From positions 1-34,683 of the forward strand of contig JAEMQF010000298.1 of assembly GCA_022758925.1 (NCBI GenBank): a stretch of DNA of 34,683 nt. Direction: 5' to 3'. The notes under the pieces were generated by a model that ran no database searches, had not been told where the DNA came from, and saw only the letters and a list, made by a program, of their open reading frames with translations. Origin of the DNA: Burkholderiales bacterium (GTDB taxonomy: Bacteria > Pseudomonadota > Gammaproteobacteria > Burkholderiales > Burkholderiaceae_C). Shown in pieces: positions 1,781 to 33,569 of this stretch. Position numbers and translations under genes: made by a program. How positions within the stretch are numbered: position 1 is the stretch's first letter; each line of letters begins with the position of its first letter.

Positions 1781-1828
1781 CGGGGGCAACCTGCAACGAG
1801 CCGCGGGCGAAGAGCCTGGGCGAGAAAG

Positions 1829-2007
1829 TGTCCGCCGCGAACCGTAGGCCGCATTCCTGAACCCAGGCAGTTCAGGTGGGCGAGGTCAGCCGGGCTTCGG
1901 GTTCATCTGACGCGAGACGATCACACCAACCCGGCGATGTTCCAAGCCCCAGCTCATACGAGCATCGGTTCAAGGAAATTAAAGACCTACGCGAATGCGA
2001 CGGACGA
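1829..2007 (-). ncRNA. ssrS: 6S RNA (ssrS)
   Basis: The 277-base gap between zapA and the EVE gene holds a 6S RNA on the minus strand. Read 5' to 3', the ends pair as GTCCGTCGC (2005-1997) with GCGGCGGAC (1838-1830), followed inward by GTAGGTC with GGCCTAC. The 3' half has a perfect CCTGAAC/GTTCAGG hairpin (1856-1876) at the place of the E. coli CCTTGAAC/GTTCAAGG hairpin. The 5' segment CTTGAACCGATG matches E. coli CCTGAGCCGATA, and CGGGTTGGTGTGA matches CGGTTGGTGAGC. Length is about 179 nt. 6S RNA binds the sigma70 holoenzyme as an open-promoter mimic in stationary phase. The position just after zapA is the conserved proteobacterial context. Ends are approximate. Confidence 0.9.
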
Positions 2008-29501: not shown

Positions 29502-29576
29502 GGGCGGTTAGCTCAGGGGTAGAGCGCCTCGTTCACACCGAGGAGGTCGCAGGTTCGAAACCTGCACCGCCCACCA
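29502..29576 (+). tRNA. tRNA-Val (anticodon CAC)
   Basis: 75 nt with encoded CCA. Acceptor GGGCGGT pairs with ACCGCCC; D arm TAGCTCAGGGGTAGAGC; anticodon stem CCTCG/CGAGG closes the loop TTCACAC, giving anticodon CAC (reads GUG); T arm GCAGGTTCGAAACCTGC. All stems are perfect. No T-run terminator is visible directly downstream. Confidence 0.97.
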
Positions 29577-33044: not shown

Positions 33045-33070
33045 GGCTGTGTCGCCGCAGCTGCGGCCAG

Positions 33071-33230
33071 GAGCGTGGGCGGCAGAAGAGATCGAAGCGA
33101 AACGGGTGGGGCGAGAGCCCAGTTTGCGCCCGGACTTGAGGCGCGTACCCGTAGGTACGCAACGAAAGGCCGGGACAAAGTGGGACTCGCCTCCACCCGT
33201 TGCAGCCGATCTCGTTCTGCCGCCCACGCT
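33071..33230. repeat. 160-bp imperfect inverted repeat (long hairpin element)
   Basis: The two arms are nearly complementary over their whole length. The outer 16 bases AGCGTGGGCGGCAGAA match exactly, then GAGATCG, AACGGGTGG, GGCGAG, CCCA, TTTG and CCCGG in the same order on both arms, with one- to two-base gaps between blocks. The tip is a perfect 7-bp stem GCGTACC/GGTACGC around CGTA (33143-33160). No transposase is encoded. It lies 26 bases upstream of the aat ATG, so it is probably in the aat-bpt promoter or leader. It may be a dispersed miniature element or a structured RNA. Confidence 0.8.
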
Positions 33231-33569
33231 GCTAGGTCCGCGGTGCGGTCAAGTTCGGCCCCGGCGGTGTCTTCTCCTCGGCGGCGCACGATTGTCTTTC
33301 TGCGTGGTGCGAACCAGAAGCAGCCGTCGGCGTCGCTGCGGCGCGGCGTGAGGCCGCGATCGACCCGCGCACAGCTGTTGAGTGCGGCTGCAACGCTATT
33401 TGGGTTCGTCAGGTGTGACAACTTGCGGTCGAGCCTACCGGTCGTGGATCCAGGTTTCCTCGGCGCGGGGCATTCAGTTTCATCGGGAAAGACCGAATAC
33501 CGCGATGTGTGCCGTATCGGCCATTTTGATTCAAGGACATCTCCCGCGCCGTCCACTCTTGCCGAGCCT
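33231..33569. other. Intergenic stretch with no recognised feature
   Basis: 339 bases between the inverted repeat and the PAS-GGDEF gene. The frame of the GGDEF gene stays open through much of it, but codon use is not gene-like and no homologous domain is visible. No promoter or ribosome-binding site stands out. Confidence 0.4.

Follow-up and report, generated by a model that had tools for sequence, protein, structure and literature searches.

A hairpin element upstream of aat belongs to a class-wide family of probable IS1182-dependent miniature transposons

Introduction

The DNA analysed here, a stretch of 34,683 nucleotides from a Burkholderiales bacterium (the window), carries a long inverted repeat directly upstream of aat and bpt, the genes for two N-degron transferases. 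Is this repeat a leader that controls the two genes, or a mobile element that came to rest beside them? Our analysis supports the second answer. With a probability of roughly 0.88, positions 33067-33235 are a MITE, a non-autonomous transposon that forms a hairpin of about 167 bp and depends, or once depended, on an IS1182-family transposase acting in trans for its movement.

Results

Borders, fold and neighbours of the element

The inverted repeat upstream of aat is real and far beyond chance. It pairs in order from end to end, and the arms 33069-33087 and 33215-33233 are 95% complementary. Folded as RNA, positions 33060-33240 (181 nt) have a minimum free energy of -126.4 kcal/mol against -74.4 +/- 4.7 kcal/mol for shuffled sequences (z = -11.0), and none of 200 shuffles reached the native value. 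These figures bear out the first-pass annotation, which had described a gene-less inverted repeat with a 7-bp apical stem GCGTACC/GGTACGC. The extent that it gave, 33071-33230, was nearly right: comparison with other copies places the true borders slightly further out, at 33067 and 33235, so that the element measures 169 bp with its borders and forms one long hairpin of about 167 bp. The distance of 26 bases to the aat start codon likewise holds when counted from 33071, but is 22 bases from the true edge. Differences between the arms, thought to be mainly small indels, do include indels but also internal loops that are conserved between subfamilies. The orientation of the element was set so that the motif GGCTGC falls in the 5' arm, i.e. 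on the same strand as aat. Its features are as follows:

33067..33235, minus strand: whole hairpin element with CTAG-type borders (full-length match to family model R2, 128.7 bits, model positions 1-168; fold)
33067..33070, no strand: left border CCAG, a decayed CTAG target (end statistics, 90 ends)
33070..33087, plus strand: left terminal repeat GGAGCGTGGGCGGCAGAA (common to other copies and to tips of IS1182-family insertion sequences)
33096..33100, minus strand: conserved 3'-arm loop motif TCGCT, opposite GGCTGC (family alignments)
33136..33143, minus strand: CGCCTCAA after the apical hairpin; family motif CGCCTCAAA (alignment A3)
33143..33160, no strand: apical hairpin GCGTACC-CGTA-GGTACGC (fold; covarying helix 4)
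33161..33168, minus strand: CTTTCGTT before the apical hairpin; family motif TTTTCGTT (alignment A3)
33202..33207, minus strand: conserved 5'-arm loop motif GGCTGC (near-invariant columns of alignments A1 and A2)
33215..33232, minus strand: right terminal repeat GCAGCGTGGGCGGCAGAA, one mismatch (complementarity of the arms, other copies)
33232..33235, no strand: right border CTAG (end statistics; empty-site comparison of a relative copy)

Positions 33067-33235 contain no recognisable gene. Pfam confirms the identities proposed for the adjoining genes: aat, which starts with the ATG at 33044-33042 (PF03588 Leu_Phe_trans), and the ATE/bpt gene (PF04377 and PF04376) are both on the minus strand, and on the other side of the element a divergent PAS-GGDEF gene occupies the plus strand. 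In the gap that separates the element from the start of aat, window positions 33055-33066 form a perfect 12-bp palindrome, CCGCAGCTGCGG. Elsewhere in the window there are genes for 6S RNA (1827-2007, minus strand; RF00013, 52.1 bits) and tRNA-Val (cac; 29502-29576, plus strand). A simple terminator was not called at the element.

Copies in the host genome and across the class

The 4.6-Mb host assembly contains a second full copy on contig C82, which is 97% identical and has intact ends (CTAG-GAGCG...CGCTC-CTAG), and left-end fragments on contigs C227 and C378. A second subfamily combines the ends and the length of the window copy with an unrelated interior; it is represented by two copies that are 96% identical, on C270 and C110, and by a partial one on C96. 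Short palindromes of 36-46 bp with the tip of the element also occur elsewhere in this genome, several of them directly after stop codons. Allowing up to three mismatches, the terminal motif was found 114 times, compared with 16 times for a reversed control, most of the three-mismatch sites belonging to another repeat family. The host also harbours a more abundant second repeat family with the motif CGAGCGTGGGCCGGAGAA (e.g. G000:C6:10529-10835, L279, and many other contigs), often as inverted pairs about 288 bp apart; it is absent from the window.

Similar elements are multicopy in other genera. In the proteobacterial MAG BP6.bin59 there are eleven such copies (164-165 bp); about 20 places match in Rhodanobacter sp. 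FW106_bin.11, some of them partial, and a congener has more than 20 copies, nearly all of exactly 166 bp. Within one genome the copies are near-identical although they reside in unrelated places. Of 369 genomes sampled across the class, 69 (about one in five), from 55 of 272 genera, matched a covariance model built from 26 copies, the window's own genome counted. Among the matches listed, nearly all are full length (165-169 bp); the E-values are rough, and these matches lie far below the cut-off. Many genomes yielded at least seven scored candidates. The family thus consists of elements of the same size and fold with rewritten sequence, spread class-wide. Together with the copies in the host and the empty sites described below, the copies in other genera and orders corroborate the early suspicion of a dispersed miniature element.

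Within the order to which the window belongs, the element occurs rarely and patchily, which fits horizontal spread. No complete copy turned up in 149 family-level relatives, and the insertion therefore looks lineage-specific. Plasmids contained no copy of the window subfamily; a class-wide relative had one partial match, in a Pseudomonas plasmid, and none in phages. A 15-mer scan of contigs returned mostly chance matches in unrelated phyla, and it also yielded loci in Burkholderiales and Rhodanobacter. In Rubrivivax several size classes use the ends of the element: palindromes with its tips measure 53-59 bp and about 272 bp (G387: L245, L246, L252, L253, L256, L257; L243, L259).

Empty sites and the insertion target

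As the window copy has no close relatives for comparison, empty sites were compared for the Rhodanobacter relatives. A copy upstream of pgk is missing at the orthologous site in 13 congeners, which have no CTAG there but a small stem-loop instead; a degenerate stretch with similar ends adjoins this copy (L233 1152-1280). A second copy is missing at its site in six congeners. The third provides the one clean CTAG filled/empty pair, with CTGG-element-CTAG in the filled state and a single CTAG in a congener (flanks about 74% identical). The check for target-site duplications proposed in the first-pass annotation was thereby positive for this pair.

When the border positions are tallied over 90 ends (45 copies), C is found at 87%, T at 69%, A at 81% and G at 99%. 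These values fit insertion at CTAG with duplication of TA and an element starting with G. Duplication of TA and duplication of CTAG are indistinguishable here, and direct flanking repeats longer than 3 bp were not found beyond CTAG. In the same 45 copies the terminal CTAG has decayed mostly to CCAG or CTGG, as at window positions 33067-33070; such a conversion would be favoured by very-short-patch repair. Other copies adjoin unrelated genes, often at their 3' ends, and by crude ORF calling the terminal TAG serves as the stop codon of the adjacent reading frame in 15 of the 45.

Tips shared with IS1182-family insertion sequences

The tip of the element, C-TA-GGAGCGTGGGCGGCAGAA, is common to ISKpn6 and a multicopy Rubrivivax insertion sequence, both of the IS1182 family. 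ISKpn6 is annotated as IS1182-like, scores 398 bits with NF033551 and is bordered by CTAGGAGCCTGCGCGGCAGAAG and TCTGCCGCGCAGACTCCTAG. In a Rubrivivax MAG the exact tip of the window copy occurs at eleven contig ends, five of which lead into the transposase start of an IS1182 group; the Curvibacter copy of this transposase start matches NF033551. Two class-wide tip variants, GAGCCTGTCGGACTT and GAGCCTGTCCGAG, match the tips of a Mesorhizobium IS1182 element (353 bits) and of ISMno8. Altogether, three tip variants of the hairpin family each match IS1182-family elements. This joint variation of hairpin and insertion sequence tips is the main evidence that the IS1182 transposase family moves the hairpins, and judging from the tips, rather than from an observed reaction, IS1182-family transposases are probably the responsible enzymes. 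An IS1182 element with matching tips was not found in the fragmented assembly of the window's own genome; the one on contig C90 was considered as a source and rejected, as its ends differ (TGAGGCTGTAGAAAAAC). IS1272, another member of this family, is reported to replace stem-loops without target duplication (PMC5678879); since the whole element is a single stem-loop, this would be an intriguing parallel.

The element is short and without coding capacity, and we found terminal inverted repeats, dispersed copies, ends in common with an autonomous transposon and, for the Rhodanobacter relatives, target duplication and empty sites, all of which are hallmarks of a MITE. An autonomous IS1182 member encodes its transposase; no ORF for one is present inside the element, which can therefore be no more than a dependent of the family.

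A conserved interior

In an alignment of 26 sequences, a hand-specified structure is 91.1% paired and 23 of its pairs have changed on both sides. The covariation score amounts to 0.296, compared with 0.122 for shuffled and at most 0.10 for slid partners. A larger alignment gave 0.546 versus at most 0.105, a value biased by the fitting of that alignment to the model. The stems change in a compensatory manner, whereas the length, the internal loops and the hairpin at the apex remain fixed, in line with the initial proposal that the pairing is under constraint. The loop motifs are conserved and asymmetric: YACTGCG or GGCTGC of the 5' arm faces CTCGCTACGA or TCGCTTCG of the 3' arm. At the apex the family motif reads TTTTCGTT-[hairpin]-CGCCTCAAA, and the window copy CTTTCGTT-[GCGTACC/GGTACGC]-GCCTCAAG. 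Correction between the palindrome arms could be an alternative source of covariation, but alone it would not keep the loops and the length. This conserved interior, the most surprising feature and unlike that of an ordinary deletion-derived MITE, suggests a requirement for the fold as such, perhaps in IS1182 transposition. Tentatively, and with rather less than even odds, the whole 167-bp hairpin, beyond its tips, may be a working part. Its fixed length and spaced asymmetric loops would then make up a DNA (or RNA) structure read as a stem-loop by IS1182-type transposases, and the elements would be old, class-wide, structure-dependent parasites, not deletion derivatives of single insertion sequences.

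Could the interior instead work as RNA, the element being an IS1182 passenger whose many copies give rise to a small structured RNA? The fixed length, the asymmetric loop motifs and the compensation over 55 genera do exceed the needs of a deletion-derived MITE. We nevertheless consider this unlikely: none of the Rfam covariance models matches the element, the strand that was modelled shows no enrichment of wobble pairs, and arm correction can likewise yield covariation. On the aat-sense strand 16 G-U cells face 42 C-A cells. This lack of an RNA signature indicates that the structural constraint may act on DNA.

Host stem-loops and an aat leader as alternatives

The palindromes might also be targets rather than transposons, i.e. 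host stem-loops (terminators or REP-like) that IS1182 elements attack and whose sequence their tips have copied. The stem-loop replacement reported for IS1272, the short palindromes after stop codons and the small stem-loop at the empty pgk site speak for this scenario. It is very improbable all the same, given that 165-169-bp elements of one genome are missing at the same sites in congeners, that near-identical copies populate unrelated places within a genome, and that one empty site is a plain CTAG. Strict stem-loop replacement in the manner of IS1272 is weakened by this CTAG site, while the pgk site is still compatible with it.

Also very unlikely is the alternative first put forward for this locus, a cis-acting leader RNA whose 5' UTR hairpin controls translation or stability of both transferases: although the element lies just before the start of aat, and its RNA on that strand would have a very stable fold, this claim found no support, since the family-level relatives reveal no conserved position upstream of aat, copies elsewhere sit by unrelated genes, a promoter-like site was not called nearby (a weak test), and the wobble cells on the aat-sense strand carry no RNA signature.

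Discussion

For the hairpin transposon that we favour, we infer the following course of events. An IS1182-family transposase would recognise the terminal repeats, and insertion at CTAG would duplicate TA or CTAG. Compensatory changes preserve length, internal loops and apical hairpin in the class-wide family, and the fold itself would probably be part of what gets mobilised. Beside aat, the element would most likely be a passenger, inserted 22 bp before the start codon and without an essential role for this gene; an accidental effect on aat-bpt expression is possible.

For many MITEs of bacteria, the record is limited to a single species or genus, and no transposase has been assigned. In the present family, a hairpin without genes retains its size and fold across 55 genera even as compensatory changes rewrite its stems, and its tips vary in step with different IS1182 elements, which names a testable mobilising enzyme. 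This opens the question of why a non-coding passenger keeps a fixed interior, in a transposase family reported to act on stem-loops. For annotation, there is a warning that such hairpins in leaders or at stop codons can be insertions and not gene-specific regulators.

Among known systems, the IS1182-family insertion sequences ISKpn6, ISMno8 and the Mesorhizobium element have the same type of terminal repeat and the same CTAG borders; in contrast to them, the element has no transposase, and its structured interior is constant in length. It also departs from IS1272, for which no target duplication is reported (PMC5678879), in that one site has CTAG on both sides. ERIC, NEMIS/Correia and RUP are likewise gene-less and mobile with terminal repeats and TA at their ends, and RUP has been tied to IS630 by shared tips (PMC2229807), but their lengths and sequences differ. 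YPAL / RU-2 of Yersinia (about 168 bp) resembles the element in length, hairpin fold, intergenic place and mobility, and its targets, at or adjoining dyad symmetry, are a further likeness (PMC2229807, PMC2759123). Its termini without TA, internal inverted repeats and target duplications of 3-26 bp set it apart; membership in YPAL was rejected, a YPAL-like plasmid copy scoring below 9 bits with family model R2. A search of open-access papers for the tip sequences, with ISfinder outside its scope, found no relevant paper. Similar by description is also Bor-2 of Bordetella bronchiseptica, a family of 167-bp intergenic stem-loops from the same bacterial order, which may be an earlier sighting, in 2008, of the family described here (PMC2267715).
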